A program made the translations under genes and the position numbers. Below are positions 1-59,449 of a stretch of DNA of 64,000 nt, in pieces. The notes beneath the pieces are model-generated. The model searched no databases, was not told the origin of the DNA, and saw only the letters and a list, made by a program, of their open reading frames with translations. Source of the DNA: Kitasatospora sp. NA04385. GTDB lineage: Bacteria > Actinomycetota > Actinomycetes > Streptomycetales > Streptomycetaceae. Numbering within the stretch: the stretch's first letter is position 1; every line of letters begins with the position of its first letter. The stretch is taken from NCBI RefSeq assembly GCF_013364235.1, contig NZ_CP054919.1, forward strand, positions 7,923,603-7,987,602. Reading direction: 5' to 3'.

Positions 1-99
1 GCCCAGAACGAGGGCTTCGACTTCGAACTGAGCGCGCTGTTCACCGCCGACGGCACCGTCCACCGCCTGGCCGCCGACCCCGACGGCCCGACCGGCTGA
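1..99 (+). CDS. C-terminal end of a truncated upstream gene
   Basis: Frame 1 is open from the window edge and ends at a TGA at 97-99, giving 32 residues (AQNEGFDFELSALFTADGTV and so on). Codon use is the same strongly C-ending pattern as the following genes, so this is the tail of a real gene. The family cannot be told from this much. It lies 112 bases before the NRPS on the same strand and may belong to the same cluster. Confidence 0.6.
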   Translation, partial: AQNEGFDFELSALFTADGTVHRLAADPDGPTG

Positions 100-211
100 C
101 CCCGCGCCGGGCCGGGCGGCCCGCGCCCACCGCGCACCCGCCGCCCGGCCCGGCCCCGGCCCCGCACCACGTCGACGACCGGCCCGCCCACCGGCCCAGA
201 GAGGCAGCACC

Positions 212-3200
212 ATGGAACACCCCCCGTCCGGCACCACCGCGCAGGACCCCCGGGACCTGCTCGGCGAACTCGCCGAGCACGGCGTCCTGGTGCGCTCCCG
301 CCGCGGCCGGCTGGTCGTCGACGCACCGCCCGCCACCCCGGGCCCCCTGCTGGAACGCCTCACCGCGGCCCGGCCCGAGGTGCTCGCCGCCGTCACCGCC
401 CCCCCCGGCCTGCCCGGCCCCGCCCTCCCGCCCGACACCCCCGCACCCGCCGACGCCCCCTTCCCGCTGACCGACCTGCAGAGCGCCTACCACGTCGGCG
501 AAGCGCACTACCCGCAGCTGCGCACCCCCGCCCACCTCGCCCACGGCTTCGAAGTCCCCGGCCTCGACCTGCCCCGCTGGACGGCCGCCCTGCGCACCGT
601 CCTCACCCGGCACGAGACGCTCCGCGCCGCCCTCGACCCCGACGGCCGCCAGCACGTCACCGAGCTCCCCGCCCACTGGGGCCCGCAGGTCACCGACCAC
701 CGCCACCTCGACGCCGACCTGGCCCGCGCCGCCTTCCTGCGCCTGCGCGAGCACGCCGCCGACCACCTGCCGCCCCTGGACTCCGGCACCCAGCTCGGCT
801 GCACCGTCCACCTGGCCCCCGACACCGCGTACGTGCTGCTCACCCTGCGCCTGTTCGCCCTGGACGCCCGCTCCATCGGCCTGCTCTGCCGCGACCTCGC
901 CGCCGCCTACGAGGGCCGCCCGCTGCCCGGGCCCACCCCGCCCGGGCTGTTCCGGCGCTACACCGAGGCGCTCGACCGGCACCGCGACAGCCAGGCCCAC
1001 CGCAACGCCGTCGCCCACTGGACCCGCCGCGCCGCCCAACTGCCGCCCCCGCCCGCGCTGCCCGACACCGCCGTGCCCGCCGAGGCCCGCTTCGCCCGGG
1101 TCCGCCACCGGCTGCCCGCCCCCGTCTGGAGCCGGCTGCGCGAACGCGCCCGGGAGAGCGGCCTGTCCGCCAACACCGTGCTGTGCGCCGCCTACGCCGA
1201 ACTGCTGCGCCGCTGGTCCGGACAGCCCTCCTTCGGACTCACCGTGCTGGTCGCCACCCGCGGCATGCTCGCCGCCGACACCCCCGGCCTGGACCAGTGC
1301 GTCGGCAACTTCGGCAGCACCCTGCTGCTGGAGTGCGACGGCACCGCCGACACCTTCACCGCCCGCGCCGCCGCCCTCCAGCAGCGCCTGATGGCCGACC
1401 TGCCGCACGTGTGGCTCTCCGGCGTCGAGATCGCCCGCCGCGCCCGGCGCACCCGCCCCGACGCGACGGTCGCCAGCCCGTTCGTCTTCGCCTCCGGCCT
1501 CGACGACACCGCCGGCGAAGCGCTGCCCCCGCACCTGACCGCCGACGGCTGGCACCTGCTGTACAAGGCCATGCACACCCCGCAGGTCCTGCTCGACCAC
1601 CAGGTCTCCGAGGAGGACGGCGAACTCGTCTGCACCTTCGACCACGTCGCCGACGCCTTCCCCGACGGCCTGGTCGCCGAACTCGCCGCCGCCCACGCCG
1701 ACCTGCTGCACCGCCTCGCCGACGACCCGCACACCTGGACCGCCACCCACCGCCCCGACCTGCCCGACGCCCTGCTCGCCGCCCGCCGCGCCGCCAACCG
1801 CACCCACCGCCCCACCGACCCCGGCGACGTCCTCGACGGACTGCGCACCGGCGCCGCGCACACCCCCGACCGGCCCGCCCTGATCGGCGCCGACGGCACC
1901 GTCGGATACCGGCAGGCCGCCACCGCCGCCACCCGCACCGCCCGCGACCTCGACCGGGCCGGCGCCCGCCCCGGCGGCCTGGTCGGCGTCCTGGCCCGCA
2001 AGAGCCCCGCCCAGTACCTCGCCGCGCTCGCCGCCCTCGCCCACGGCTCCGGCTACGTCCCGCTCGGCGTCGACTGGCCGCCCGCCCGGATCGCCGCCCT
2101 GCTGGAACGGCACGCCATCACCCACCTGCTCACCGACGACGAGGGCGCCCGGCTGGCCGCCGCCCTGCCCGGCCCCGCCGCCGTCACCGCCACCGCGCTG
2201 CGCCCGCCCGCCGCCGCCGACGCCTCGGGCGAGGGCGAGGGCGACGACGACGCGTACGGGCTGCCCGCCCAGGACCCGGACGCGCTCGCCTACGTGATCT
2301 TCACCTCCGGCTCCACCGGCACCCCCAAGGGCGTCGCCATCCCGCACAGCGGGCTGCTCAACACCGTCCAGGACATGGTCGAGCGCTTCGGCGTCGGCCC
2401 CGGGGACCGGTTGCTGTCGCTGTCCGAACTGCACTTCGACCTCTCCGCCTTCGACCTGTTCGGCGCCCTGCACGCCGGCGCGGCCGTCGTCGTCCCCCCG
2501 TGCGGCCCCCGCCCCGACCCCGAGCTGTGGGCCCGGTGGGTGGCCGACAGCGGCGCCACCGTGTGGAACACCGTCCCGGCGCTGCTGGAGATGCTCCTCG
2601 ACCACCTCGGCGAGCGCGCCGCCGACGTCCTCGGCGGGCTGCGGCTGATCCTGCTCAGCGGCGACTGGATCCCGCTCGGCCTGCCCGACCGGATCCGCGC
2701 GGCCTGCCCCGGGGCGCGGCTGGTCGCCCTCGGCGGCGCCACCGAGGCCTCGATCTGGTCCAACTACCACGTGGTGGAGGACCTCGACCCGTCCTGGAAG
2801 TCCGTCCCCTACGGCCGGCCGCTCGCCAACCAGCGCTACCACGTCCTGGACGCCGGCCTCGCCGACGTCCCGCACTGGGTGCCGGGGGAGCTGTACATCG
2901 CCGGCGACGGCCTCGCCGCCGCCTACTACGGCCAGCCCGAACTGACCGCCGAACGCTTCCCGCGCCACCCGCGCACCGGGGAACGCCTCTACCGCACCGG
3001 CGACCACGCCCGCTACCGGCCCGACGGCACCCTGGAGTTCCTCGGCCGGGTCGACAGCCAGGCCAAGGTCCGCGGCTACCGGGTCGACCTGCTGGAGGTC
3101 GAGCAGCAGCTCGCCGCCCAGCCCGGCGTGCGCGCCGCCGCCTGCACCGTCACCGGCACCGGCGCCGACAGCCGGCTGACCGCCTTCGTCGTCCCCGCCG

Positions 3201-4462
3201 AGGACGGCCCGGCCCCCGACCCGGCCGCCCTGCGGGCCGGCCTGGCCGCCGTCCTGCCCGGCTACGCGGTGCCCGGCGCCTTCCACCGCGTCCCCGCGCT
3301 GCCGCTGACCGCCAACGGCAAGCGCGACGCCCGCGCCCTGCTCGCCCTCGCCGCGGAAGCCTCCCGAGCGTCCGAAGCGTCCGAAACCGGGGGCGCGCCC
3401 ACCGGCCGCCCGCCGCGCACCGACCGCGAACGCGCCCTGGCCCGGCTGTGGGAGCAGGTCTGCGGCACCACCGTCCGCTCCGTCGACGACGACTTCTTCG
3501 CCAGCGGCGGCAGCTCCGTCACCGCGGTGCGGCTGCTGCGCCTGATCGGCGAGGAGTTCGGGGTGCGGCTGCCGCTGTCCAGCCTGTTCGAGGCCGGCAC
3601 CGTCGCCGGGCAGTGCGCGCTCCTGGACCGCCGCGGCCGCCGCACCCTGCTGACCGTCCGCGCGGGCGGCCCGGAGACCGTGGTGCTGGTGCACCCCGTC
3701 GGCGGCCACCTGCTGGGCTACCGCGACCTGATCGAGGCCCTGCCCGCCCGCTTCGCCGTGCACGGCCTGCAGAGCCCGGCCGCCGCCGAACTGCCCGGCA
3801 CGCTCGGCGAACTGGCCGACGAGTACGCCGCCGCGGTCGCCGCCCTCGGCACCCCCGTCCACCTGCTCGGCTGGTCGCTCGGCGGCGTGCTCGCCGCCGA
3901 GATCGCCCACCGGCTGCCCGACGCCCCGCGCTCGCTCACCCTGGTCGACAGCTTCGTGGCCGCCCCCGCCGGCCCGGACGGCGTCCCCGCGGCGGGGGAG
4001 GCCGCCACCGCGGCCGACTTCTTCGCCGACCACCTCGGCCGGGGCGACACCGACGCCCCGGACCTGCGCGTCCCCGCCGGGCACCCCGACCCGTTCGGCC
4101 ACCTCGCCGCCCGGCACCTGCCCGACGAGCCCCCGCAGGCCCTGCGCGCCCTGCACGACCAGTACCGCGCCTTGTACCGGCTGCTGCTGGCCCACCGGCC
4201 CCGGCCGCTGCCCGGCCGCTGCCCGCAGACCTTCGTCCGCGCGGGCGGCGAACGCCCCGGCGCCTTCCCCGGCCTGACGCCCGCGCAGGAGCACCCCGGC
4301 GCCCTCGTCCCGCCCGGCACCGAGGTCCGCACCGAGCCGGGCACCCACCACACGGTCGTCCGGGCGGACGCCGCGCAGCGCCTCGCCCTGATCCTCGACC
4401 GGCACGCCGACCGGCACGCCGAGCGCACCGACCACCCCGAGCCCGCCACCAGCAGGAAGTGA
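212..4462 (+). CDS. Single-module NRPS: docking-Cy-A(Cys)-PCP-TE
   Basis: 1416-residue nonribosomal peptide synthetase. Residues about 12-62 resemble a TubC-type docking domain. A condensation/heterocyclisation domain follows from about 88 (PLTDLQSAYHVGE, typical of Cy). Its catalytic DxxxxDxxS motif reads RLFALDARS (about 213-221), so the first Asp is Arg. The adenylation domain has A3 (FTSGSTGTPKG, about 696), A5 (GGATEAS), A7 (YRTGDHARY), A8 (RGYRVDLLEVE) and A10 (NGKRDA). Aligning by eye to PheA gives the code D-L-F-N-L-S-L-I-W, one change from the usual cysteine code DLYNLSLIW. The PCP is at about 1092 (FFASGGSSV) and the thioesterase has GWSLGG (about 1220) and GTHHT. Cysteine activation is inferred; whether the Cy domain still makes a thiazoline is open. 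Start ATG follows AGAGAGG. The gene heads a tightly spaced run of same-strand genes. Confidence 0.93.
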   Translation: MEHPPSGTTAQDPRDLLGELAEHGVLVRSRRGRLVVDAPPATPGPLLERLTAARPEVLAAVTAPPGLPGPALPPDTPAPADAPFPLTDLQSAYHVGEAHYPQLRTPAHLAHGFEVPGLDLPRWTAALRTVLTRHETLRAALDPDGRQHVTELPAHWGPQVTDHRHLDADLARAAFLRLREHAADHLPPLDSGTQLGCTVHLAPDTAYVLLTLRLFALDARSIGLLCRDLAAAYEGRPLPGPTPPGLFRRYTEALDRHRDSQAHRNAVAHWTRRAAQLPPPPALPDTAVPAEARFARVRHRLPAPVWSRLRERARESGLSANTVLCAAYAELLRRWSGQPSFGLTVLVATRGMLAADTPGLDQCVGNFGSTLLLECDGTADTFTARAAALQQRLMADLPHVWLSGVEIARRARRTRPDATVASPFVFASGLDDTAGEALPPHLTADGWHLLYKAMHTPQVLLDHQVSEEDGELVCTFDHVADAFPDGLVAELAAAHADLLHRLADDPHTWTATHRPDLPDALLAARRAANRTHRPTDPGDVLDGLRTGAAHTPDRPALIGADGTVGYRQAATAATRTARDLDRAGARPGGLVGVLARKSPAQYLAALAALAHGSGYVPLGVDWPPARIAALLERHAITHLLTDDEGARLAAALPGPAAVTATALRPPAAADASGEGEGDDDAYGLPAQDPDALAYVIFTSGSTGTPKGVAIPHSGLLNTVQDMVERFGVGPGDRLLSLSELHFDLSAFDLFGALHAGAAVVVPPCGPRPDPELWARWVADSGATVWNTVPALLEMLLDHLGERAADVLGGLRLILLSGDWIPLGLPDRIRAACPGARLVALGGATEASIWSNYHVVEDLDPSWKSVPYGRPLANQRYHVLDAGLADVPHWVPGELYIAGDGLAAAYYGQPELTAERFPRHPRTGERLYRTGDHARYRPDGTLEFLGRVDSQAKVRGYRVDLLEVEQQLAAQPGVRAAACTVTGTGADSRLTAFVVPAEDGPAPDPAALRAGLAAVLPGYAVPGAFHRVPALPLTANGKRDARALLALAAEASRASEASETGGAPTGRPPRTDRERALARLWEQVCGTTVRSVDDDFFASGGSSVTAVRLLRLIGEEFGVRLPLSSLFEAGTVAGQCALLDRRGRRTLLTVRAGGPETVVLVHPVGGHLLGYRDLIEALPARFAVHGLQSPAAAELPGTLGELADEYAAAVAALGTPVHLLGWSLGGVLAAEIAHRLPDAPRSLTLVDSFVAAPAGPDGVPAAGEAATAADFFADHLGRGDTDAPDLRVPAGHPDPFGHLAARHLPDEPPQALRALHDQYRALYRLLLAHRPRPLPGRCPQTFVRAGGERPGAFPGLTPAQEHPGALVPPGTEVRTEPGTHHTVVRADAAQRLALILDRHADRHAERTDHPEPATSRK

Positions 4463-4470
4463 GACACCCC

Positions 4471-4941
4471 GTGAGCAGCAGGAGCATCAAGGACATCGTC
4501 GTGTTCGGCGAGAGCGAGGGCGAGGTGCGGCACGTCCGCAAGGGCCCCGACCGGTGGATCGCCGGCGAGCTCGCCATCACCAACACGCTGCAGTTCGCCA
4601 GCCCCGACGGCGCGTTCACGGCCGGCATCTGGGAGAGCACCCCCGGCAAGTTCCGGGCCGTCTACGAGGAGGACGAGTTCTACCACATGCTGTACGGCCA
4701 GGTCGTGATCGCCGACGAGGACGGCAACGCCCGGACCTTCCACCCCGGCGACACCATCGTGGTACCGGCCGGCTTCACCGGGACCTGGGAGGTGGTCGAG
4801 CCGACCAAGAAGTTCTACGCCCACTACCGCCCCGGCAGCGGCCCGGCCCTCGCCACCGCGACGCCGGTGACGACCGAGCCCGCCGAGCGGACCGACGCCG
4901 ACCCGTCCGACCCGTCCGACCCGTCCGTGCAGGCCGGCTGA
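4471..4941 (+). CDS. Cupin_3 (DUF861-like) protein
   Basis: 156-residue single-domain cupin starting at GTG 4471, eight bases after the NRPS stop, with AGGAAG overlapping the end of the NRPS. The core (EEDEFYHMLYGQVVIADEDG, then FHPGDTIVVPAGFTGTW) matches the Cupin_3/ureidoglycine-aminohydrolase-like group, where a Trp follows the second motif. The C-terminal 30 residues are a Pro/Asp/Ser tail with repeated DPS triplets and are probably disordered. Cupins of this group bind a metal and are often isomerases, lyases or accessory enzymes. The substrate is unknown. Its place between the NRPS and the N-hydroxylase suggests a tailoring role in the same pathway. Confidence 0.85.
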   Translation: MSSRSIKDIVVFGESEGEVRHVRKGPDRWIAGELAITNTLQFASPDGAFTAGIWESTPGKFRAVYEEDEFYHMLYGQVVIADEDGNARTFHPGDTIVVPAGFTGTWEVVEPTKKFYAHYRPGSGPALATATPVTTEPAERTDADPSDPSDPSVQAG

Positions 4942-4964
4942 CCCGGGAAGAGGCCGACACCACC

Positions 4965-6329
4965 ATGACCACGTCCCCCGCCACCGCCGGCCTGCCGCAC
5001 CAGCGGCTGCTCGGCATCGGGTTCGGTCCCTCGCACCTGTCCATGGCCGCCCTGCACGCCTCCCGGGCGGCCGCCGGCGGCGCGGGGAGCGTGCACTTCC
5101 TGGAGGCCCGCGCGTCCTTCGCCTGGCACCCGGACATGCTGCTGCCCGGCGCCCGGATGCAGGTCGCCTTCCTCAAGGACCTGGTCACCCCCCGGGAGCC
5201 GACCAGCCCGTTCAGCTTCGTCAACTTCCTGGTCGCCCACGGCCGGCTGGAGCAGTTCCTCGACCTCGCCACCCTCAACCCGACCCGGCACGAGTTCGTC
5301 GAGTACTTCCGCTGGGCGGCCGCCCGGCTGCCCGGCTACGCCAGCTACGGGCACCGGGCCGAGGCGATCCGCCCCGCCGTCGCCCCCGACGGCACCGTCA
5401 CCCACCTCGAAGTGGACCACCGCGGCCCCGACGGCACCCGGCACACCACCACCGCCGACCACGTCTCGGTGGCCCCCGGCGGCTCCCCGGTCGTCCCCCG
5501 CGGCGTCGACCCCGCCGCCCGGGAGAGCGGCGCCGTCCTCCACAACAGCGCCTTCCTGACCGGCATCCAGCCCTTCCACCGGCGCGGCCGCGAGCTGCCG
5601 CACCGCTTCCTGGTGGTCGGCGCCGGACAGAGCGCCGCCGAGGCCTTCCAGTACCTGGCGGCCGAGTTCCCCGCCGCCGCCGTCACGCTCGCCCACCGCG
5701 GCTTCGCCCTGCAGCCCGCCAACAGCAGCGCCCTGGCCAACGCCATCTTCGCCCCCGCCGCGGTCGACCTGTTCCACGGCGCCGCCCCGGCCCGCCGCCG
5801 CGGCATCCTGGCCGAACTGCGCACCACCAACTACGCCGCCGTCGACGACACCGACATCGACGCCGTCGCCGGACTCCTCTACGACCAGCAGGTGCGCGGC
5901 GGGCAGCGGCTGGCGGTGCGCCGCTTCACCGAGCTCACCGCCTGCCGGGCCGCCGGACCGGGCGCCGCCGCCACCCTGCGCGACCTGCTCACCGGCGAGG
6001 AGCGCACCGAGGAGTACGACGCCGTCGTCCTCGCCACCGGCTACGACTTCACCGAGGCCCGCGGACTGCTCGCCGGCCTCGACCGGTACCTGCTGCGCGA
6101 CGAGGACGGCCGGCTGCTCGTCGACCGCGACTACTCGGTGCGCACCGCCCCCGGCTTCGCCCCCAAGGTCTTCCTGCACGGCGCCGCCGAGCACACCCAC
6201 GGCCTCACCAGCACCCTGCTCTCCCTGATCGCGCACCGCGCCGGCGACATCCTCGACGCCGTCGACGCCGCCGACGGGGCCGCCCGTCCCGCCCCCACCG
6301 ACCACCTCCTGCAAGGAGCGCACGCATGA
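4965..6329 (+). CDS. L-lysine/L-ornithine N-hydroxylase (flavin monooxygenase)
   Basis: 454-residue FAD/NADPH-dependent N-hydroxylating monooxygenase of the IucD/PvdA/SidA family. Visible motifs are the FAD loop GIGFGPSHLS (residues 17-26), the family signature around WHPDMLLPGARMQVAFLKDL and TPREPTSPFSFVNFL, the NADPH loop VVGAGQSAAE and the late ATGYDF. These enzymes hydroxylate the side-chain amine of lysine or ornithine. In s56-p1 biosynthesis the homologue Spb38 makes N6-hydroxylysine for hydrazine formation, and the two genes that follow here fit that reaction. The substrate cannot be fixed by eye. Start ATG 4965 follows GGGAAGAGG; the stop overlaps the next start (ATGA), so translation is probably coupled. 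Confidence 0.93.
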   Translation: MTTSPATAGLPHQRLLGIGFGPSHLSMAALHASRAAAGGAGSVHFLEARASFAWHPDMLLPGARMQVAFLKDLVTPREPTSPFSFVNFLVAHGRLEQFLDLATLNPTRHEFVEYFRWAAARLPGYASYGHRAEAIRPAVAPDGTVTHLEVDHRGPDGTRHTTTADHVSVAPGGSPVVPRGVDPAARESGAVLHNSAFLTGIQPFHRRGRELPHRFLVVGAGQSAAEAFQYLAAEFPAAAVTLAHRGFALQPANSSALANAIFAPAAVDLFHGAAPARRRGILAELRTTNYAAVDDTDIDAVAGLLYDQQVRGGQRLAVRRFTELTACRAAGPGAAATLRDLLTGEERTEEYDAVVLATGYDFTEARGLLAGLDRYLLRDEDGRLLVDRDYSVRTAPGFAPKVFLHGAAEHTHGLTSTLLSLIAHRAGDILDAVDAADGAARPAPTDHLLQGAHA

Positions 6330-6679
6330 GCGGCATCCAGATCCAGCGGCGGGCCGACGCCCCCACCCGCGAGGAGTACGGCTGCGAGTTCCGCCGGATC
6401 CTGCCCTGGCAGCGCTCCGGCCCCTCCGACACCGGCATGGGCGTGTGCACGGTCGCCCCCGGCACCGCCACCACCCCGCACTCGCACGTCGACCACGAGC
6501 AGTTCTACGTGGTGCGCGGCAGCGGCACCGTCGAGGTCGAGGGCGAGCGCGCCGAGGTCGGCCCCGGCGACGCGATCGTCGTCGGCTCGCACCAGGTCCA
6601 CCACTTCGAGAACGGCTCCGCCACCGAGGAGCTCGAACTGCTGTCCGTCTGGTCGCTCGGCCCGCTCGGGGGCGAGTGA
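6326..6679 (+). CDS. Small cupin, probable N-N bond-forming half of a split hydrazine synthetase
   Basis: 117-residue cupin_2 barrel with both classical motifs: HSHVDHEQFYVVRG (metal-binding His-x-His and Glu, residues about 52-65) and GDAIVVGSHQVHHFEN. In known hydrazine synthetases such as Spb40, a cupin domain and a MetRS-like domain form one polypeptide; the cupin converts an ester of N-hydroxylysine and an amino acid into a hydrazine. Here the cupin is a separate gene. It overlaps the N-hydroxylase by ATGA and the MetRS-like gene by TGATG, so all three should be made together. The function is inferred from family and order, not shown. Confidence 0.85.
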   Translation: MSGIQIQRRADAPTREEYGCEFRRILPWQRSGPSDTGMGVCTVAPGTATTPHSHVDHEQFYVVRGSGTVEVEGERAEVGPGDAIVVGSHQVHHFENGSATEELELLSVWSLGPLGGE

Positions 6680-8193
6680 TGGCCGCCCGCGCCTTCCTGG
6701 TCACCGCCACCCCGCCCACCACCAACGGCGACCTGCACGTCGGCCACCTCTCCGGCCCCTACCTGGGCGCCGACGTGTTCAGCCGCGCCCAGCGGATGCT
6801 CGGCCACACCGCCCTCTACGCCTCCGGCGGCGACGACCACCAGACCTACGTGGTCACCACCGCCCAGCGCCTGGGCCTGGACCCGGTCGAACTCGCCGCC
6901 CGCTGCAACGAGGAGATCCGCGAGACCCTCGCCCTCGCCCGGATCGACATCGACGCCTTCACCAGCCCCGACGACGACTACCGCGCCGACGTCCGGGCCT
7001 TCTTCACCGACCTGTACCGCACCGGGAAACTGGAGCGCCGCACCTGGACGTTCCCGTACTGCGCCACCACCGACCGCTTCCTGCTGGAGGCCTTCGCCAC
7101 CGGCCACTGCCCCGAGTGCCTGGTCGCCACCTGCGGCGCCATCTGCGAGAACTGCGGCCACCCCAACGACACCGGCTCGCTGCTCTACCCCGCCGGCACC
7201 GGCACCGCGGCCGGCACCGGCACCGAGCCGCGCGAGGTCGAGATCCTCGTCCTGCCGCTGGAGCACTACCGCGAGCGCTTCACCGACTTCTACCGCGAAC
7301 GCGCCGCCACCATGCGGCCGCACGTGCTGCGCTTCGTCCGGGAGATGCTCGACCGCCCGCTGCCCGACTTCCCGGTCAGCTACCCCGCCCAGTGGGGCAT
7401 CCCGGTCGGCCTGGACGGCTTCGAGGGCCAGGTGTTCAACGTCTGGGCCGAGATGCTGCCCGGCCTGCGCGTCATGAGCGAGACCGCCCGCGCCCGCCGC
7501 GCCCCCGCGCACCGCGGCGACGTCTGGGCCGCCGACTCCGGCTACGAACTCGTCCAGTTCCTCGGCTACGACAACACCTTCTACTTCTCGCTCGCCCACC
7601 TGGGACTCGCCTTCGCCCACGGCGGCCTGCTCACCCCCACCGCCATCGTGACCAACGAGTTCTACCACCTGGAGGGCGCCAAGTTCTCCACCAGCCGGCG
7701 CCACCTGATCTGGGCCCGCGACCTGGTCGGCAAGTACGGCGCCGACAACGTCCGCTTCCACCTCGCCCTCGACAACCCCGAGCACCAGGTCTCCGACTTC
7801 ACCGAGGCCGGCTTCACCGAGAGCGTCCGCACCCGCCTGCACGCGCCGCTCACCGCGCTCGCCGCCGCCCTCGCCCCGCGCACCGGGCAGCCCGCCCCCG
7901 CCGGGCCCGGGACCACCGCGCTGCTCGACCGCTACCGTGACCGCATGCGCCGCGCCTACACCCTGGAGACCTTCTCGCTCCGGCAGGCCGCCGAGAGCAC
8001 GGCCAACCTGCTCGCCCTGCTCGCCGCCAAGGCCGACCAGGACCCGGCCCTGGCCGTCGCGGGCGTCCGCGTCCTGGCCGAACAGGCCGCCCCGCTCCTC
8101 CCGGACCTCGCCGCCGCGCTCGCCGAGCGCTGCGCCGCCGTCCCCGAGGGCACCGTCCCGCGCCTGGACGGGCTGATCGCCCACCCGCTCTGA
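6679..8193 (+). CDS. Methionyl-tRNA synthetase-like protein, probable amino-acid-activating half of a hydrazine synthetase
   Basis: 504-residue class I synthetase-like protein. It has the HIGH-type site HVGH (residues 20-23, in TNGDLHVGHLSGPYLGAD), a KMSKS-type loop KFSTS (about 334) and a MetRS zinc knuckle with four cysteines (CPEC then CGAICENCG, about 143-160). The C-terminal helical part is short compared with housekeeping MetRS (over 550 residues). It sits in an NRPS cluster directly after a cupin and an N-hydroxylase, which fits activation of an amino acid for transfer to an N-hydroxyl group rather than tRNA charging. A housekeeping or resistance MetRS is the alternative, but the gene overlaps make that unlikely. 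Confidence 0.88.
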   Translation: MAARAFLVTATPPTTNGDLHVGHLSGPYLGADVFSRAQRMLGHTALYASGGDDHQTYVVTTAQRLGLDPVELAARCNEEIRETLALARIDIDAFTSPDDDYRADVRAFFTDLYRTGKLERRTWTFPYCATTDRFLLEAFATGHCPECLVATCGAICENCGHPNDTGSLLYPAGTGTAAGTGTEPREVEILVLPLEHYRERFTDFYRERAATMRPHVLRFVREMLDRPLPDFPVSYPAQWGIPVGLDGFEGQVFNVWAEMLPGLRVMSETARARRAPAHRGDVWAADSGYELVQFLGYDNTFYFSLAHLGLAFAHGGLLTPTAIVTNEFYHLEGAKFSTSRRHLIWARDLVGKYGADNVRFHLALDNPEHQVSDFTEAGFTESVRTRLHAPLTALAAALAPRTGQPAPAGPGTTALLDRYRDRMRRAYTLETFSLRQAAESTANLLALLAAKADQDPALAVAGVRVLAEQAAPLLPDLAAALAERCAAVPEGTVPRLDGLIAHPL

Positions 8194-8264
8194 CCGTTCC
8201 GCACCGGCCCGGCCCCCGACCCGCGGGGCCGGCCCCGGACCCGACCGCAGCAAGGCAGAACACC

Positions 8265-9539
8265 ATGCACATCGCGTTCGTCGACTCCAACCCCGCCGCC
8301 CTGGAAGCCGTCCGGCTCGCCACGGAGGCCGGCCACCGCGTGACCTTCCTGCAGTCCGCGGACCCGCTCTACCCGCCCACCGAGCAGAACCTGCGCATCC
8401 TCGGCGCCGTCGACCACCTCGTCGACGGCCTCGTCACCACCGACCCCGGGGCCGTCACCGCCGCGCTCGCCGCCCGGCACGCCGACCACCCCATCGACGT
8501 CGTCACCAGCCAGCACGAGATGTGCACCGAGGCGGTCGCCCACGCCTGCCGCACCCTCGGGCTGCGCGGCACCGACCCCGACGCCGTCCTGACCGCCCGC
8601 CGCAAGGACCGCTGCCGCGAGGCCCTCGACCGGGCCGGCCTCGCCTCCGCCCGCCACGCGCTGGCCGCCGACGAGGCGGAGGTCCTCGCCGCCGCCGAAC
8701 GCATCGGCTACCCCGTCATCCTCAAGCCCCCGTCCGGCGGCGACAGCCTGCTCTCCTACGTGGCCCGCACCCCCGAGGAGGCCGCCGAGGGCTGCCGCGG
8801 CATCCTCACCGGGCTCGACGCCGTCCCCGCCGACTGGCACGGCCAGTTCCGGCGCGGCATCCTGGTCGAGGAGTACCTGACCGGCCCGCTGGTCTCGGTC
8901 GAACTCGGGGTCAAGAACGGCGAGTTCACCCCCTACTGCGTCTCCGGCCGGTTCCGCTGGGCCCAGGACGAGGTGGTCGAGCTCGGCTCCTACATCCCCT
9001 CCAACCTGCCCCCGCGGCAGCGCGAGGACTGCATCGCCTACGCCGTCGAGGTCTGCCGCGCCCTCGGGCTCGACCTCGGCGTCTTCCACCTGGAGATCAT
9101 CCACACCGAGCGCGGCCCGGTCCTCGTCGAGGTCAACCCCCGCGTCATGGGCGGCGCCCTGCCCACCATCTACAAGCACGCCACCGGCACCGACGTCTTC
9201 ACCGGGCTGCTGGAGATCCTCGACCCGGACGCCGAGGTCAACGCCCCCGCCCCGACCGACGGTTGCGTCGGCGGACGCAAGGTGATGGCCCGCCACGGCG
9301 GCACCCTCGACCCCGCCGCCACCCTGGAGCGCGCCGCCCGCCACCCCGACGTCCTGCAGGTCGTCGGCTTCGACAGCTACCGCACCGGACCGGGCCGCGA
9401 CGTCGCCGCCGGGCAGATCGTCGCCCGCTTCATCCTGCGAGGTGAAGATCATCTGTCCGTGGTTCGGGCAGCCGAGCAGATCCTGCACGGTTTGGAGGAA
9501 GATCTGGGGATCGAGCTGATGATCGGTGAGAAGGACTGA
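8265..9539 (+). CDS. ATP-grasp carboxylate-amine ligase
   Basis: 424-residue ATP-grasp protein. The N-terminal Rossmann-like part begins MHIAFVDSNPAA. The ATP-grasp core shows the nucleotide-binding Lys in YPVILKPPSGGDS, an acidic strand ILVEEYLTGP, and the Mg-binding end VLVEVNPRVMGG. Such enzymes activate a carboxylate as an acyl phosphate and join it to an amine, as in L-amino-acid ligases. In this cluster it may attach an amino acid to the hydrazine intermediate; substrates are unknown. Start ATG follows GCAAGGCAG after a 71-base gap. The last 35 or so codons switch to A/T-ending codons (GAT, CAT, GAA, GGT, TTG), unlike the rest of the cluster. Confidence 0.88.
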   Translation: MHIAFVDSNPAALEAVRLATEAGHRVTFLQSADPLYPPTEQNLRILGAVDHLVDGLVTTDPGAVTAALAARHADHPIDVVTSQHEMCTEAVAHACRTLGLRGTDPDAVLTARRKDRCREALDRAGLASARHALAADEAEVLAAAERIGYPVILKPPSGGDSLLSYVARTPEEAAEGCRGILTGLDAVPADWHGQFRRGILVEEYLTGPLVSVELGVKNGEFTPYCVSGRFRWAQDEVVELGSYIPSNLPPRQREDCIAYAVEVCRALGLDLGVFHLEIIHTERGPVLVEVNPRVMGGALPTIYKHATGTDVFTGLLEILDPDAEVNAPAPTDGCVGGRKVMARHGGTLDPAATLERAARHPDVLQVVGFDSYRTGPGRDVAAGQIVARFILRGEDHLSVVRAAEQILHGLEEDLGIELMIGEKD

Positions 9540-9546
9540 AGACCCC

Positions 9547-10836
9547 ATGACCTCCCCTGCCGGCACGCCCACCGGGCTGCCCACCCTCCCCGGCGCCGTC
9601 GACGGCCCCCGCCTCGCGGCCCTCGCCGCCGAACACGGCACCCCGCTGTGGGCGTACGACGCGCAGACCATCCGCGGCCAGATCGCCAAGCTGCGCTCCT
9701 TCGACGTGATCCGCTTCGCGCAGAAGGCCTGCTCCAACATCCACATCCTGCGCCTGATGCGCGAGGAGGGCGTCCTGGTCGACGCCGTCTCCGAGGGGGA
9801 GGTCGAACGGGCCCTGCTCGCCGGCTACCGGGTCGGCGGCCAGGACGAGCCCATCGTCTTCACCGCCGACCTGCTCAGCCGCAGCGCGCTGCGCCGGGTC
9901 GTCGAACTCGGCGTCCCGGTCAACGCCGGCTCCCCGCAGATGCTGGACCAGGTCGGCCAGGCCTCGCCCGGCCACCCCGTCTGGATTCGGATCAACCCCG
10001 GCTTCGGCCACGGCCACAGCCGCAAGACCAACACCGGCGGCGAGCACAGCAAGCACGGCATCTGGCACGAGCACCTGGAGGAGAGCCTCGCGCTGGTCGA
10101 CCGCCACGGCCTCGACCTGATCGGCCTGCACATGCACATCGGCTCCGGGGTCGACTACGGCCACCTGGAGAACGTCTGCGAGACCATGGTCAAGCAGGTC
10201 CTGGTCTCCGGCCGCGACGTGCGCGCCATCTCGGCCGGCGGCGGCCTCTCGGTGCCCTACGGGCCCGGCGAACAGGAGGTCGACACCGAGCGCTACTTCC
10301 GGCTGTGGGACGCCGCCCGGCAGGAACTCGCCGCCCGGCTCGGCCACCCCGTCCGGCTGGAGATCGAGCCCGGCCGCTTCCTGGTCGCGAACTCCGGCGT
10401 GCTGGCCGCCGAGGTGCGCGCCCAGAAGCCGATGGGCAGCAACTGGTTCGTGCTGTCCGACGCCGGCTTCAACGACCTGATGCGGCCCGCCATGTACGGC
10501 AGCAGCCACCAGGTCTCCGTCCTCGACGGCGCCAGCGGCGAACCCCGCACCGGCGAGCCGCTGGACACCGTCCTGGCCGGCCCGCTGTGCGAGTCCGGCG
10601 ACGTCTTCACCCAGTCCGAGGGCGGCCTGGTCCACTCCGTCCCGCTGCCGCGCACCGAGATCGGCGACCTGCTGGTCTTCCACGACGCGGGCGCTTACGG
10701 CGCGAGCATGTCCTCCACCTACAACTCCCGCCCGCTGGTCCCCGAGGTCCTGGTCGACGGCCCCGAGGCCCGGCTCATCCGCCGCCGCCAGAGCGTCGCC
10801 GACATGCTCGCGGCCGAGACCGACCTGCCGGCCTGA
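9547..10836 (+). CDS. Fold-III PLP decarboxylase (diaminopimelate/ornithine decarboxylase family)
   Basis: 429-residue alanine-racemase-fold decarboxylase. The PLP lysine is in RFAQKACSN (residue about 60). Other family marks are HMHIGSGVDYG, the phosphate loop SAGGGLS, EIEPGRFLV, the catalytic cysteine motif AGPLCESGDVF and HDAGAYGASMSS. Start ATG 9547 is preceded by AAGGA at 9531; a GTG at 9526 would overlap the upstream gene and has no better ribosome site. The housekeeping role would be lysine synthesis, but the position as last gene of the biosynthetic run points to decarboxylation of a pathway amino acid, perhaps a hydrazino-amino acid or the final peptide. That is inference. Confidence 0.88.
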   Translation: MTSPAGTPTGLPTLPGAVDGPRLAALAAEHGTPLWAYDAQTIRGQIAKLRSFDVIRFAQKACSNIHILRLMREEGVLVDAVSEGEVERALLAGYRVGGQDEPIVFTADLLSRSALRRVVELGVPVNAGSPQMLDQVGQASPGHPVWIRINPGFGHGHSRKTNTGGEHSKHGIWHEHLEESLALVDRHGLDLIGLHMHIGSGVDYGHLENVCETMVKQVLVSGRDVRAISAGGGLSVPYGPGEQEVDTERYFRLWDAARQELAARLGHPVRLEIEPGRFLVANSGVLAAEVRAQKPMGSNWFVLSDAGFNDLMRPAMYGSSHQVSVLDGASGEPRTGEPLDTVLAGPLCESGDVFTQSEGGLVHSVPLPRTEIGDLLVFHDAGAYGASMSSTYNSRPLVPEVLVDGPEARLIRRRQSVADMLAAETDLPA

Positions 10837-10885
10837 CCCCGCGACGCCCGCCCTGCCCGGCCGTCTGCGGGCGGGCGGGCGGAGC

Positions 10886-36481: not shown

Positions 36482-38188
36482 GTGGACAAGGTGACGAACG
36501 ACCAGCATCCGGACGGCGGCAGACCGGCGGACCCGCCGTCCCCGCCCGGCCACCAGGGCGGACCGCCCGCGCCGGGCAGGCCCGCCCGCTGGGAACTCCC
36601 CGACTACGCGCACCAACGCGAACTCGGCGCCGGCGCGTCCGGCCGCGTCGTCCTCGCCCACCACCGGGCCACCGGCACCCCGGTCGCGATCAAGTACCTG
36701 CTCGGCGACCACCCCGACCAGGGCGCCTTCCGGGTCGAGGCCGAACTGCTCGCCACCCTCGACAGCCCGCACGTCACCCGCCTCTACGAGTACGTCGAGA
36801 GCCCCCGCGGCGCGGCCATCGTGATGGAACTCGTCGAGGGCATCTCGCTGCGCGACCTGCTGCGCGCCGAGGGCGGCACCGGACCGGAAGCCGCCCTGGT
36901 CGTCCTCAAGGGCTCCCTGCTCGGCCTGGCCGCCGCGCACCGGGCGGGCGTCGTGCACCGCGACTACAAGCCGGGGAACGTGCTGGTCACCGTGGACGGC
37001 GAGTCGAAGCTCGTCGACTTCGGCATCGCCGTGCGGACCGGCGCCGGTACCGGCGGCACCGTCGCGGGCACGCCCGCCTACATGGCCCCCGAGCAGTGGG
37101 CCGGCCACCCCGCCTCCCCGGCCACCGACGTCTACGCGGCCACCGCCACCTTCTTCGAGTGCCTCACCGGCGCCAAGCCGTACGCCGGAACCACCCTGAT
37201 GGAACTCGCGGTCCAGCACACCGAGGCCGAGATCCCCGACACCCAGGCGCCCGAAGCCCTCCGCCCGCTCATCCGGGCCGGGCTCGCCAAGACCCCCGGG
37301 CAGCGGCCCCCGGGCGCGGAAGCCCTGGTCGGCGAACTGGAGGCCGCCGCCGGTGCCGCGTACGGCGCCGACTGGGAGGAGCGCGGACGCAAGCGGCTGG
37401 CCGCGCTCGTCGCCCTGCTGCCCCTGCTGCTGCCCACCCCCACCGCGGACGGCGCCCTGCCGGGCGCCACCTCGTACGCGACGACCGTGCTCGCCCCGCG
37501 ACGCCGCGTCCCGGGGCGGCTGATCGCCACCGTCGGCGCGATCGTCCTGGTCGTGGGCGCGCTCGCGACGGTCGCCTCGGCCGGTGAGGAGCGGACCGTC
37601 GCGGACCCGCGACCGGTCGCCGCCCCACTCGCCACCACCAGTGTCGGACCCGCCACGACACCCACGGCCGAGGCCCCGCCGACCCCCGCCGACAGCCCCA
37701 GCACGAGCCCCAGCGCGTCCCCCTCGCCCACCGCGGAGAGCAGCCCGAGCGCGACACCTAGCCCGACACCGACACCGAGCCCGAGCCCGACGGCGAAGCC
37801 CAGCACCAGTACGAAGCCGAGCCCCAGCGCGTCGCCCTCGCCCAGCCCGACGCCCAGCGCAACGGCGAGCAGCGCCCCGCCGGTCACCGTAACGCTGGGC
37901 ACGCCGTTCTTGAGGGGCGGCAACAGCACGGTGTCGGCCACCGTCACGGTCACGGTGGCCACCAGCGGGAGCGGGACGGCCACGCTGACCTTCAGTTGGT
38001 ACGACAACGACTCCGGCAAGCTGGTCGGCACGACGACGTCCGACCCGGTCCCGGCCGGTACGACCCGGGTGACCAGCGCCTTCACGTCGGCCTGCCGGAC
38101 CTGGAACGTGAGGCTGGTGGTGATTAGCACCCCCGCCGCGGTGAAGCCCGTCTCCGGTGGCCCGTACAGCATGTTCTGCCTCAGGTGA
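36482..38188 (+). CDS. Membrane Ser/Thr protein kinase with extracellular beta domain
   Basis: 568 residues. Kinase domain about 40-300: glycine loop LGAGASGRVVLA, ATP Lys in VAIKYLLGD, catalytic loop VVHRDYKPGNVLV, DFG in VDFGIAV, and APEQW in GTPAYMAPEQW. A membrane helix (LIATVGAIVLVVGALATVAS) leads to a Pro/Ser/Thr-rich linker of about 90 residues and a C-terminal beta domain (TVTLGTPFLRGGNSTVS to PYSMFCLR) with two cysteines. The outer domain is the likely sensor. It is followed within 13 bases by a membrane protein with a related outer domain. Confidence 0.92.
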   Translation: MDKVTNDQHPDGGRPADPPSPPGHQGGPPAPGRPARWELPDYAHQRELGAGASGRVVLAHHRATGTPVAIKYLLGDHPDQGAFRVEAELLATLDSPHVTRLYEYVESPRGAAIVMELVEGISLRDLLRAEGGTGPEAALVVLKGSLLGLAAAHRAGVVHRDYKPGNVLVTVDGESKLVDFGIAVRTGAGTGGTVAGTPAYMAPEQWAGHPASPATDVYAATATFFECLTGAKPYAGTTLMELAVQHTEAEIPDTQAPEALRPLIRAGLAKTPGQRPPGAEALVGELEAAAGAAYGADWEERGRKRLAALVALLPLLLPTPTADGALPGATSYATTVLAPRRRVPGRLIATVGAIVLVVGALATVASAGEERTVADPRPVAAPLATTSVGPATTPTAEAPPTPADSPSTSPSASPSPTAESSPSATPSPTPTPSPSPTAKPSTSTKPSPSASPSPSPTPSATASSAPPVTVTLGTPFLRGGNSTVSATVTVTVATSGSGTATLTFSWYDNDSGKLVGTTTSDPVPAGTTRVTSAFTSACRTWNVRLVVISTPAAVKPVSGGPYSMFCLR

Positions 38189-38201
38189 GCGGAGACCGAC
38201 G

Positions 38202-38948
38202 ATGACCGAACTCCCTCCCGACCCCGGCTTCCGGCTCGGGCCGGTCCGCAAGCCCGCCGCCTCCGACCCGACCGTCCGACTCCGTCCGGCCGCCCCGCCC
38301 GAGGAGCAGCACACCGTCCAGCTCCGCCCGGCCGCCGCGCCGCCGCCGTCCGACGCCGAGCAGACCGTGCGGCTCGATCCGGCGCGGACGCTGCCCGCGG
38401 ACCTCGACGCCACCGTGCTCCAGCCCGCGACGCCCGTGCCCCTGCCCGTGCCCCCGCCCGGGCCGGACGGCGGGTTGCGGCGGTTCGGCCCCGGGGTGCC
38501 GCCCCGGGCCGCCGCGGTGTGGCGCGGGGAGAGCGCCGTCGAGGCGCCGTCGCGGCGGTGGGACAGGTGGCTGCTGCTGCCGCTGGTGCTGCTGCTCGCG
38601 CTGCTCGGGTACCTGCTGTGGGACAGGTACCTCCGCCCCGTCGAGGTGGTGGGCGTGACGGCGGCCGCCCCGGCCGCGGGGCCGGGGTGCGACGGCACCG
38701 CCGTGGTCACGGGAACGCTGGAGACCGACGGCGGCGGGGGCGACGTGCGCTACCGGTGGGTGCGCAGCGACGGCACCGACTCCGGGCCGGTCGTCCAGCA
38801 CGTGGCGGCCGGGCGCCGGAGCACCGGGGTCACGCTGGAGTGGACCTTCCAGGGCCACGGCGAGTTCGACGCCACCGCGCGCCTGGAGGTACTGGAACCC
38901 GCGGGCGGCCGCCCCGCCGAGGTGGCGTTCCGCTACTCCTGCCCGTGA
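38202..38948 (+). CDS. Membrane protein with repeated Thr motifs and an outer beta domain
   Basis: 248 residues. The cytosolic N-terminal third carries four repeats with the same core: PTVRLRPA, HTVQLRPA, QTVRLDPA and ATVLQPA. One membrane helix (LLLPLVLLLALLGYLLW) follows, then an outer domain (GPGCDGTAVVTGTLETDGGG to VAFRYSCP) similar in layout to the end of the preceding kinase. The T-V-x-L repeats are plausible kinase targets and FHA docking sites (Thr with a hydrophobic residue at +3). It is probably co-transcribed with the kinase. No database family recognised. Confidence 0.8.
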   Translation: MTELPPDPGFRLGPVRKPAASDPTVRLRPAAPPEEQHTVQLRPAAAPPPSDAEQTVRLDPARTLPADLDATVLQPATPVPLPVPPPGPDGGLRRFGPGVPPRAAAVWRGESAVEAPSRRWDRWLLLPLVLLLALLGYLLWDRYLRPVEVVGVTAAAPAAGPGCDGTAVVTGTLETDGGGGDVRYRWVRSDGTDSGPVVQHVAAGRRSTGVTLEWTFQGHGEFDATARLEVLEPAGGRPAEVAFRYSCP

Positions 38949-39027
38949 CGCGGAGGCCCGGCAGGACGCACGAAACCCGGGTCGCGGCCGGCATCGCGTC
39001 GGCGGCGGCCCGGGCGGGCTGCTCGGG

Positions 39028-39306
39028 TCAGGCCCGTGGGGCGGTCGCGCCTCCGCCCGTCTTCACGGCCTCGACCATGTGCTGGTGCACCTCGCGCGCC
39101 GCCGCCTCGTCCGCGGCGGCCACGGGGCTGCCCTCCACGGTGAACCAGTCGAGCGCGCCGCTGTACTGCACGGTCAGCCGCGCCTCGCCCTCGATCCACA
39201 TGGTGTGCACCGTCAGGTCCCCGGTGATGACGCCGATCTCCGCGGTCTTCACACCGCCGTGACCGGACAGAATGCCCTGAGTGGTCCAGGTTGCCCAGGT
39301 GTTCAC
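39028..39306 (-). CDS. Hypothetical protein
   Basis: 92 residues starting at GTG 39306: MNTWATWTTQGILSGHGGVK, then VHTMWIEGEARLTVQYSGAL and EAAAREVHQHMVEAVKTGGG. It looks like a compact alpha/beta domain with no signal peptide. I do not recognise the family. Its divergent neighbour is the FHA-ABC gene 145 bases away. Confidence 0.65.
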   Translation of the reverse strand: MNTWATWTTQGILSGHGGVKTAEIGVITGDLTVHTMWIEGEARLTVQYSGALDWFTVEGSPVAAADEAAAREVHQHMVEAVKTGGGATAPRA

Positions 39307-39439
39307 AAGCCCGCTCCCATCCGCCGCCCAACGGGCCGCTCGGTCCCGACCCCACAGGTACCCGATCCGTGGCGACCGCTTCCCACTGTCACCCGAAGGG
39401 CCGAAAACCGCCCCCCGGGCGGGTGCTCGCCGCGCGGTC

Positions 39440-39445
39440 TAGCAT
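39440..39445 (+). promoter_or_regulatory. -10 element of the leaderless FHA-ABC operon
   Basis: TAGCAT ends six bases before ATG 39452, the fourth case in this window of a -10 hexamer six bases from the start codon. Confidence 0.55.
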
Positions 39446-39451
39446 CGACGT

Positions 39452-41836: not shown

Positions 41837-41839
41837 CGC

Positions 41840-42337
41840 ATGGGCCCGCCCGACGGGTTCCGGCCCACCCACGTCGTCCCCGCCGACGGGCTGCCGACCT
41901 GGACCGCCCCCGACCCGGCCGCCGCCGGAGTGCCGCTCGACGCGCTGCTGCCGGTCGCGCTCGCCGAGTCCAACGGCAACTGGGCCCGGATCGTCTGCTC
42001 CAACGGCTGGAGCGCCTGGGTCGACGGACGCCTGCTGGTCGCCCTCCCGCAACGCCCCCCGGCCACCGGCGCCCCGCTCGCCACCACCGACGACCCGCGC
42101 CCGCTGCTCGCCGCACTGGAACGCTCGCTGGCCACCTACCGGCGGCTGGTCGACGAGTGGGCGGCCGGCCGGATCGACCTGGAGACCTTCCGCGACGGCA
42201 CCCGCGACCTGCGGCTCGGCGCGGTGCTGGACGGCTCGGACGCCTGGCTGCTCGACCTCGACCGGGGCCGCTGGTACTACTGCGACGCCGCCCAGCTGCA
42301 GACCTACGCCCCCGCCGACCGCGACGGGCGGAGCTGA
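41840..42337 (+). CDS. Hypothetical protein in the FHA-ABC operon
   Basis: 165 residues, no membrane part. N-terminal segment WARIVCSNGWSAWVDGRLLV resembles an SH3-like bacterial fold, and the C-terminal half is helical plus a Trp/Tyr-rich end (DLDRGRWYYCDAAQLQTYAP). It starts three bases after the transporter stop and ends four bases before the kinase start, so it should be made with both. Family not recognised. Confidence 0.8.
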   Translation: MGPPDGFRPTHVVPADGLPTWTAPDPAAAGVPLDALLPVALAESNGNWARIVCSNGWSAWVDGRLLVALPQRPPATGAPLATTDDPRPLLAALERSLATYRRLVDEWAAGRIDLETFRDGTRDLRLGAVLDGSDAWLLDLDRGRWYYCDAAQLQTYAPADRDGRS

Positions 42338-42341
42338 CCCG

Positions 42342-43370
42342 GTGCCCGGGGAACGGCCCGAGCCGCCGTCGCTGGCCGCCGCCGAACCTGGTGAGCTGGA
42401 CGGGCGCACGCTGGCCGGCTACCGGCTGGAGCACGTGCTCGGCCGCGGCGGCATGGCGGTGGTCTACCGCGCCGAGGACCTGCGGCTCGGCCGCACCGTC
42501 GCGGTCAAGCTGCTCGCCCCCGAACTCGCGCGCAACGAGACCTTCCGGCAGCGCTTCGTCCGCGAGTCGCACATCGCCGCGTCGCTCGACCACCCGAACA
42601 TCGTCCCGGTGTACGACGCCGGCGAGGTCGAGGGCGTCCTCTACCTGGCCATGCGCTACGTGCGCGGCCGCGACCTGCGCGCCCTGCTCGACCGGGAGGG
42701 CCCGCTGACCGGCGCCCAGACGGTGCGGATCGCCGTCCAGGTGGCCAGCGCGCTGGACGCCGCGCACGCCCACGACCTGGTCCACCGGGACGTCAAGCCC
42801 GGCAACGTGCTGATCGCCGAGGGCACCGACCCCGACCGCCCCGAGCACGCCTACCTGACCGACTTCGGGCTCACCAAGAAGTCGCTCTCGCTGACCGGCC
42901 TGACCAGCGTCGGCCAGTTCGTCGGCACCCTCGACTACGTCGCCCCCGAGCAGATCTCCGGCAGACCGGTGGACGGGCGCTGCGACGTGTACAGCCTGGG
43001 CTGCGTGGTGTTCGAGATGCTCACCGGCGGCCCGCCCTACCGGCGCGACGACGACCTGGCGCTGCTCTGGGCCCACCTCAACGACCCGCCGCCGGACGTC
43101 CGGGAGCAGCGCGCGGACCTGCCCGCCGGGGTGGCGGCGGTGCTGGAACGGGCGATGGCCAAGCGCCGTGACGACAGGTACGGGAGCTGCCTGGAGTTCG
43201 TCGCGGAGCTGCGGGCGGCGGCGGAGGTGCGGAGCGCTCCGCGCCCCGCGTCCCGGGAGGCTCCCCCGGCTGCTCCGCGGATCGTCCCGGAGGCCGTTCC
43301 CTCGGTCGCCCCGGGGGCTGACCGGCCGCCGCAGCCGCCGGCCTGGGCGCGGCCGGTGTTCGAACCCTGA
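42342..43370 (+). CDS. Ser/Thr protein kinase (soluble)
   Basis: 342 residues. Complete Pkn-type kinase domain about 25-285: LGRGGMAVVYRAEDLRLGRT, VAVKLLAPELARN, catalytic loop LVHRDVKPGNVLI, DFG in TDFGLTKK, activation segment TSVGQFVGTLDYVAPEQISG. No membrane helix; the tail is a Pro/Ala-rich linker. It starts at GTG 42342, four bases after the preceding stop. Being in one operon with the FHA transporter, it is the obvious kinase to phosphorylate that transporter's partners. Confidence 0.93.
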   Translation: MPGERPEPPSLAAAEPGELDGRTLAGYRLEHVLGRGGMAVVYRAEDLRLGRTVAVKLLAPELARNETFRQRFVRESHIAASLDHPNIVPVYDAGEVEGVLYLAMRYVRGRDLRALLDREGPLTGAQTVRIAVQVASALDAAHAHDLVHRDVKPGNVLIAEGTDPDRPEHAYLTDFGLTKKSLSLTGLTSVGQFVGTLDYVAPEQISGRPVDGRCDVYSLGCVVFEMLTGGPPYRRDDDLALLWAHLNDPPPDVREQRADLPAGVAAVLERAMAKRRDDRYGSCLEFVAELRAAAEVRSAPRPASREAPPAAPRIVPEAVPSVAPGADRPPQPPAWARPVFEP

Positions 43371-57733: not shown

Positions 57734-58023
57734 GGGCGGCTGGCTCCGGGCGCGGCGGGAAGGACGGGCACGCGTCACCGAAGCAGGTCCGCCCGGCCGG
57801 GGCAATCGGATTTCTCCCCGGACGGGGGAGGCGGAGCACGACGGCGAGCACGGAGAGGGCCTGATGGACAGTCATCTTGCCGGTATGAACGATCTTCTGA
57901 CGGTTGATCGGGAAAGTGCGACACCCGCGCGGACACTGGTGCGTCCGCGCCCGGGGCGGGATCATCGTCGCTGTGGCGGACCGGTCCGCGCGCGGCTGGC
58001 CGGGTGGCGGAGGTGGTGGGCGG
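57734..58023. other. Intergenic control region of the GS-like operon
   Basis: 290 bases between divergent genes. The middle part around 57860-57920 is less GC-rich and probably holds the operon promoter. I see no gene and no strong hairpin. Confidence 0.45.
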
Positions 58024-59382: not shown

Positions 59383-59449
59383 GCCGGCCCTGCCGCGGAA
59401 GCGGGACGGAAACGGAAACGGAAACGGGAACGAGAGCGAGGAGGAGCAG

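Follow-up and report, generated by a model that had tools for sequence, protein, structure and literature searches.

At the left end of a 64,000 nucleotide stretch of Kitasatospora sp. NA04385 DNA (the window, bases 7,923,603-7,987,602 of the single 8.40 Mb contig that makes up this genome, NZ_CP054919.1 in RefSeq assembly GCF_013364235.1) lies a cluster of ten genes, all on the forward (+) strand and about 17 kb in total, which joins a trio of enzymes of the kind that forms hydrazines to two non-ribosomal peptide synthetases (NRPS1 and NRPS2). We put at roughly 55% the probability that this is a biosynthetic cluster for a small N-N-bonded peptide, in which an intact lysine N-N conjugate would be loaded on NRPS1. 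It belongs to an orphan cluster family of a known kind, that of the hydrazine pathways built on a cupin and a methionyl-tRNA synthetase (MetRS)-like enzyme, in a new layout. The more telling features of the cluster are an upstream NRPS1 whose substrate pocket is odd and the absence of a conjugate-cleaving oxidase.

Sequence left of the window was examined too, over 37.6 kb, and the domain content of the genes was assigned by Pfam on their translations. A first-pass annotation of the window had described a compact, single-strand run of genes from an NRPS to a decarboxylase, which Pfam confirms (the genes are intact, some of them overlap, and no intergenic gap exceeds 112 bases), and had placed its left end outside the window; the flanking sequence shows the cluster running about 6.5 kb further left, through three genes encoding a circularly permuted ATP-grasp protein, a major facilitator superfamily (MFS) exporter and NRPS1. 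That last gene was missed at first pass. The complete ten-gene order is common to eight genomes of Kitasatospora and Streptomyces, the NA04385 genome and seven others, namely K. phosalacinea NRRL B-16230, S. fumanus JCM 4477, Streptomyces sp. NRRL S-37, Streptomyces sp. MMG1121 and the genomes G231, G449 and G464. Protein identity to the window copies is 82-96% in K. phosalacinea and 65-88% in the Streptomyces clusters. A short form consisting of NRPS1, N-hydroxylase, cupin, MetRS, a thioesterase and a MATE exporter is present in three more genomes, carried by a plasmid in S. nigrescens HEK616 and in S. angustmyceticus, and also found in Streptomyces sp. NRRL S-337. Within the stretches examined these three short clusters have no NRPS2, EutQ-like cupin, ATP-grasp, decarboxylase or related MFS gene, and for the circularly permuted ATP-grasp S. 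nigrescens gives no match and NRRL S-337 nothing closer than a 36% relative. The core common to all 11 clusters is NRPS1, N-hydroxylase, cupin and MetRS, with the genes of the trio adjacent in every case.

Because the same genes stand in the same order in seven other genomes, their co-occurrence goes beyond chance, and the ten genes form one system. NRPS2, for which a separate upstream system had been considered, is together with the other genes in all eight full clusters. The family is rare. Matches to the NRPS1 adenylation (A) domain were found in 4 of 345 genomes of the bacterial family, in 5 of 392 Streptomyces genomes and in 1 of 394 genomes of the class, this one being the NA04385 genome itself. 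A close cupin (E < 1e-50) is found in exactly the same five of the 392 Streptomyces genomes, the next cupin being 37% identical; were five genomes randomly drawn each time, the chance of this coincidence would be about 1e-11, a figure qualified by the fact that genomes are not independent draws.

As judged from their sequences, the N-hydroxylase (Pfam Lys_Orn_oxgnase, 4965..6329), cupin (Cupin_2, 6326..6679) and MetRS-like amino-acid-activating enzyme (tRNA-synt_1g, 6676..8193, with an alternative start ATG at 6679) are a hydrazine-forming trio of a known kind, and the conserved hydrazine synthetase catalytic residues in 11 of 11 clusters support the N-N chemistry proposed at first pass. In the alignment the cupin residues H52, H54, E58 and H92 are kept in all 11, with a spacing identical to that of the PyrN quartet His50, His52, Glu56 and His90, in which Glu56 is essential (PMC8664883). 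The MetRS-like protein likewise carries the ATP motifs of class I synthetases, HVGH (the window form) or HLGH together with KFSTS, in every cluster. Spb40, Tri28, PyrN, and RHS1 with its partner resemble the window cluster in combining an N-hydroxylase, a cupin with the PyrN quartet spacing and a MetRS-like activating enzyme. In the window cluster the cupin and MetRS are separate genes, as they are with RHS1 and in albofungin, an arrangement known for the hydrazine synthetase family (PMC8664883, PMC11705231). The cupin’s function cannot be named from similarity alone, since two solved proteins, plu4264 (E 6e-11) and KdgF (E 3e-9), outscore the RHS1 cupin 5UQP (E 2e-7), which forms an N-N bond (PMC8664883); its predicted role as N-N bond former draws on Pfam and the PyrN residue spacing. 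As an observation in its own right, plu4264 (PDB 4mv2/4q29), the best solved match of the window cupin and an entry whose name gives no function, may itself form N-N bonds, so far without being recognised for it. The N-hydroxylase probably acts on the N6 of lysine; its best solved matches are a near tie between the lysine enzyme MbtG (E 8e-81) and the ornithine monooxygenase 3s5w (E 6e-79). It is very improbable that this enzyme, whose family serves siderophore pathways too, contributes to a hydroxamate siderophore while the cupin and MetRS do something else and no N-N bond is made: in all 11 clusters both proteins have the residues that N-N bond formation requires, and by Pfam none of the ten genes encodes an acyltransferase or a siderophore uptake protein.

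Described hydrazino-acid pathways rely on a flavin adenine dinucleotide (FAD) oxidase to cleave the N-N conjugate, examples being Spb39 and Apy10 as well as the related Tri27 and AzsM. Unlike these cupin/MetRS hydrazine synthetase systems, none of the 11 clusters carries such an enzyme. Oxidase queries taken from the Pantoea ananatis, Deinococcus ficus, G057 and G014 loci gave no FAD oxidase match at E 1e-3 in the 11 clusters and the flanks examined, the oxidase of Streptomyces sp. BHT-5-2 being recovered as positive control, and 18 oxidase queries from all comparison loci again found no match in the same sequences. A DAO-type FAD oxidase is present in all 17 other hydrazine-synthetase loci counted (5 + 12). 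The 12 are further Streptomyces loci, out of 13 with G306 left out, and in each of them the oxidase shares a stretch with cupin and MetRS; the oxidase match is weak (28-31%) in two (L104 and L111), and the N-hydroxylase was detected in ten, two stretches (L101 and L102) giving no detectable copy. A Klebsiella locus, whose record ends just past the MetRS gene, is left uncounted. Since no cleaving oxidase is present in the cluster, the conjugate would be expected to stay whole.

NRPS1 is the one NRPS present in every family member (11/11). This protein of 1161 residues (L010:16217-19702, equivalent to window -3386 to 99, so that only its 3' end, 1..99, lies in the window) has by Pfam the order adenylation, thiolation, condensation, thiolation (A-T-C-T). 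In a phmmer alignment with the A domains of linear gramicidin synthetase, Thr-Asn occupies the Asp235/236 positions and Arg is found at 239, in a numbering that we take to be that of GrsA. The pocket stretch SITNLVREVFW is identical in all 11 clusters, T/N/R replacing the residues from Asp235 onwards and Thr standing at 235 throughout. Asp235 of an A domain normally binds the alpha-amine of the substrate, and with this residue absent an ordinary amino acid is not expected as the NRPS1 substrate; the arginine hints at a carboxylate in the pocket. NRPS1 has one A domain and two carrier domains, and the short clusters have no second NRPS, for which reasons its A domain may load both carriers. To our knowledge it would be the first A domain to accept an intact hydrazine-bridged bis-amino acid. 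A domains that act iteratively or are shared have been reported for solanimycin and capreomycin (PMC10204066, PMC12400406).

Several points weigh against the loading of an intact lysine conjugate. The NRPS1 pocket indicates which substrates to discount but does not point to the one accepted, and the best PDB matches of the N-hydroxylase comprise lysine and ornithine enzymes in nearly equal measure. In pyrazomycin a saccharopine-dehydrogenase-like enzyme replaces the FAD oxidase (PMC8664883); Pfam finds no such gene among the ten, and it was not searched for elsewhere. Furthermore, NA04385 and K. phosalacinea encode outside the cluster relatives, of 45% and 44% identity respectively, of one oxidase type, that of NA04385 sitting in a second hydrazine-type locus, and cleavage in trans may occur in this strain. 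The alternative in which an enzyme from elsewhere in the genome, or one that escaped recognition, cleaves the conjugate to a hydrazino acid, as happens in s56-p1, triacsin and azaserine, and in which NRPS1 activates this hydrazino acid, would draw on the NA04385 oxidase and on the DAO-type oxidase that accompanies the hydrazine genes in all 17 other loci counted, and a hydrazino acid would equally account for an NRPS1 without Asp235. We nevertheless consider it unlikely, as no oxidase is found in any of the 11 clusters or flanks examined and in eight of the ten cluster genomes tested two oxidase types have no relatives at E 1e-20, save 31-32% matches in two of the eight; this genome-wide search covered those two types in ten genomes, and neither the third (G014) type nor S. 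angustmyceticus.

The second hydrazine-type locus of NA04385 (L116, G000:C1:1767000-1781000, 2949-10866) encodes an N-hydroxylase (36%), a MetRS-like protein (38%), the DAO-type oxidase and two ATP-grasp proteins; it is related to the Deinococcus ficus plasmid locus, and a cupin gene was not detected in the stretch. Hydrazine trios are also carried by plasmids of Enterobacterales, Pantoea ananatis pOC5aB (L071) and Klebsiella variicola pBM374-1 (L073). The Pantoea plasmid is classed as conjugative, and genes for FAD oxidase, MFS, ATP-grasp and GNAT proteins come after its trio. A MetRS relative was present in 29 plasmid records, and the context was examined for six, those of two short clusters, Pantoea, Deinococcus, Klebsiella and BHT-5-2.

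NRPS2 (212..4462, 1416 residues; Pfam Condensation, AMP-binding, PP-binding and Thioesterase) is present in all eight full clusters and absent from the three short ones. It begins with a docking segment and a heterocyclisation (Cy) domain (248..1732, delimited by alignment to solved Cy domains), followed by an A domain (1847..3322), a thiolation or peptidyl carrier domain (3434..3625), and a thioesterase domain with the motif GWSLGG and a conserved histidine, seen in alignment (3677..4384). In S. fumanus JCM 4477 the gene (L030, 4015-8218) is split over two reading frames, possibly by an assembly error. The A domain pocket, with positions mapped by eye, reads DLFNLSLIW with the same residues in 8 of 8 clusters, which we take to be a cysteine-type code, and the best solved match of the Cy domain is that of EpoB (5t7z, E 1e-64). 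Pocket code and Cy family make cysteine and a thiazoline possible, but the first-pass annotation was too confident of both. In the DxxxxD motif of the Cy domain the first Asp is Arg in 8 of 8 (in S. fumanus from one of two alignments), whereas Asp is present in the five solved Cy domains aligned out of eight listed. The TxS motif reads AxS, with an Ala that PchE shares, and the Asp of LLDHQ, presumably the one needed for cyclisation, is kept.

Among the closest known systems is the azaserine cluster (azs; PMC10445470), which is alike in its hydrazine trio, its Cy-containing NRPS with an N-terminal docking segment and cysteine-type prediction, and its ATP-grasp and MFS genes. It differs in having the FAD oxidoreductase AzsM, the carrier AzsQ and the acyl-CoA dehydrogenase AzsF, and the A-T-C-T NRPS1 of the window cluster is a further difference. 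The azaserine NRPS, AzsO, retains the DxxxxD that is altered in NRPS2 and carries Asn at the Thr and Asp positions; it was predicted to use cysteine yet uses serine, and mutating either Asp of its DxxxxD abolished ester formation (PMC10445470). On account of this precedent and of the altered motif, a thiazoline should not be assumed for NRPS2. That the enzyme is at this step an ordinary Cy module making a thiazoline from cysteine is a minority possibility, to which the EpoB match, the invariant pocket, the retained LLDHQ Asp and the AxS of PchE all lend weight, against the loss of an Asp whose counterpart AzsO needs and the failure of the cysteine prediction there. The unit added would be cysteine by the pocket code, with serine as an alternative. 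At somewhat short of even odds stands the more detailed proposal that an intact lysine-NH-NH-amino-acid conjugate is the NRPS building block, that the NRPS1 A domain serves both carriers, and that a Cy domain with an altered DxxxxD joins the conjugate to cysteine.

The last gene of the cluster (9547..10836, alternative start GTG at 9526) encodes a pyridoxal phosphate (PLP) decarboxylase of fold III (Orn/DAP/Arg). Pfam agrees here with the first-pass assignment, and by sequence the protein is more precisely a diaminopimelate (DAP) decarboxylase: it matches the solved enzyme 1knw, which we take to be that of E. coli, over nearly the whole length (E 2e-177, 593 bits) with active-site motifs kept, and scores 384 bits against the LysA cut-off of 298 (TIGR01048). 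The motifs are kept in 8 of 8 full clusters, except that Phe57 is Tyr in four. LysA is thus matched in sequence and motifs, and the window protein differs in being a second copy inside a biosynthetic cluster, each of the eight full-cluster genomes having a separate, higher-scoring LysA (about 30% identity between the cluster copy and the housekeeping-type). Among 70 genomes from the genus, 18 encode copies of 77-83% identity; none of the 18 has a close cupin, and the five copies whose neighbours were examined are not beside an N-hydroxylase or cupin of this kind. A tree places the two Kitasatospora cluster decarboxylases as sisters of other Kitasatospora copies (88/94), with the Streptomyces cluster copies outside; it does not set the cluster copies apart, and a reading of the decarboxylase as a cluster-specific tailoring enzyme was not adopted. 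Sequences from G513 and G073 were rejected as being of another type (29-30% identity).

Judged from the sequence, lysine supply is the simplest role for this enzyme, self-resistance or tailoring being possible. Hydrazines inhibit PLP enzymes, and the cluster copy could protect its host if a hydrazine product attacked the PLP enzymes of the lysine/DAP route. Its lineage, distinct from that of the housekeeping-type LysA beside which it is a second copy, its retention in 8 of 8 full clusters, and the DAP epimerase carried by a distinct cluster in the genome G052, whose ATP-grasp, MFS and permuted ATP-grasp genes are related ones, would all fit; set against the three short clusters without a decarboxylase, the close enzymes in 18 of 70 genus genomes that have no close cupin, and the simpler explanation of lysine supply, self-resistance appears quite unlikely. 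The neighbouring ATP-grasp amino-acid ligase (8265..9539) is only distantly BacD/DdaF-like in its Pfam, profile and PDB matches, where BacD ranks first among solved structures and DdaF among named peptide ligases. It has the ATP-grasp fold in common with these bacilysin and dapdiamide proteins, but it reaches 55 bits to DdaF where the cut-off is 840, so it is not the same enzyme. In the bacilysin and dapdiamide pathways an ATP-grasp ligase attaches an amino acid, which suggests by analogy that this enzyme may attach one to the product. ATP-grasp genes near hydrazine genes are also seen in Pantoea, Deinococcus and five Streptomyces loci (26-36% identity).

The predicted pathway to an intact conjugate on NRPS1 would begin with an N-hydroxylated diamino acid, most likely N6-hydroxylysine, made by the N-hydroxylase from lysine supplied in part by the cluster’s own DAP decarboxylase. 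The MetRS-like enzyme would activate a second amino acid with ATP and join it to the hydroxylamine oxygen, and the cupin, as a zinc enzyme, would rearrange this ester to a hydrazine-bridged bis-amino acid. The conjugate would stay whole and be taken up by NRPS1, within which one unit would be coupled to another held on the protein's second carrier domain. NRPS2 would then add cysteine (or serine), with or without a possible thiazoline, and its thioesterase would release the chain; one or both ATP-grasp enzymes may attach another amino acid, and the product would leave the cell through the MFS protein. In the other cupin/MetRS pathways examined the conjugate is first broken down or the hydrazine is passed on. 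The view that no described product needs this gene set stands in the literature covered on hydrazine pathways and these strains, in which neither a cluster with the gene set nor a matching product was found, subscription papers being mostly outside that coverage.

The circularly permuted ATP-grasp protein (Pfam CP_ATPgrasp_1, about L010 13140-14543) and the MFS exporter (P0002, within L010:14543-15973, assigned by reading frame and comparison with relatives) lie left of the window; an open reading frame at L010:14899-16233 considered as a membrane gene was dropped, having no Pfam match and the wrong frame. The EutQ-like cupin (Cupin_3, 4471..4941) stands between NRPS2 and the N-hydroxylase, and an HxH metal motif was not seen in its alignment. 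To the left the cluster is flanked by a DUF5937 gene and an aldo/keto reductase, and the next Pfam-matched gene to the right is Spo0M on the opposite strand. Two matches were rejected as family members. The first, in a Caenispirillum metagenome-assembled genome (L034, one of seven contig-scan loci, 31% identity over 70 residues), is without other cluster genes. The second is the different cluster of the Kitasatospora genome G052 (L020/L021, G052:C4:7474000-7503999), which has no close cupin or MetRS. It encodes relatives of the circularly permuted ATP-grasp (49%), MFS (48%) and ATP-grasp (about 60-61%) proteins, and also a glutamate mutase subunit, a semialdehyde dehydrogenase, the DAP epimerase, a PIG-L deacetylase and a 33% N-hydroxylase. 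Elsewhere in the window a glutamine-synthetase-like gene followed by an aldehyde dehydrogenase (57904-60826) is perhaps an amine-degradation pair, and two Ser/Thr protein kinase genes (36482-43370) lie near an ABC transporter with FHA domains (39452-41836).

Natural products with an N-N bond are a small, chemically reactive group. In the family described here a well-defined trio for N-N bond formation stands together with an assembly line in which two sites are non-standard, and the usual cleaving oxidase is absent. The cluster is small and is carried by named strains, and it makes the intact N-N conjugate as an NRPS monomer a directly testable proposal.

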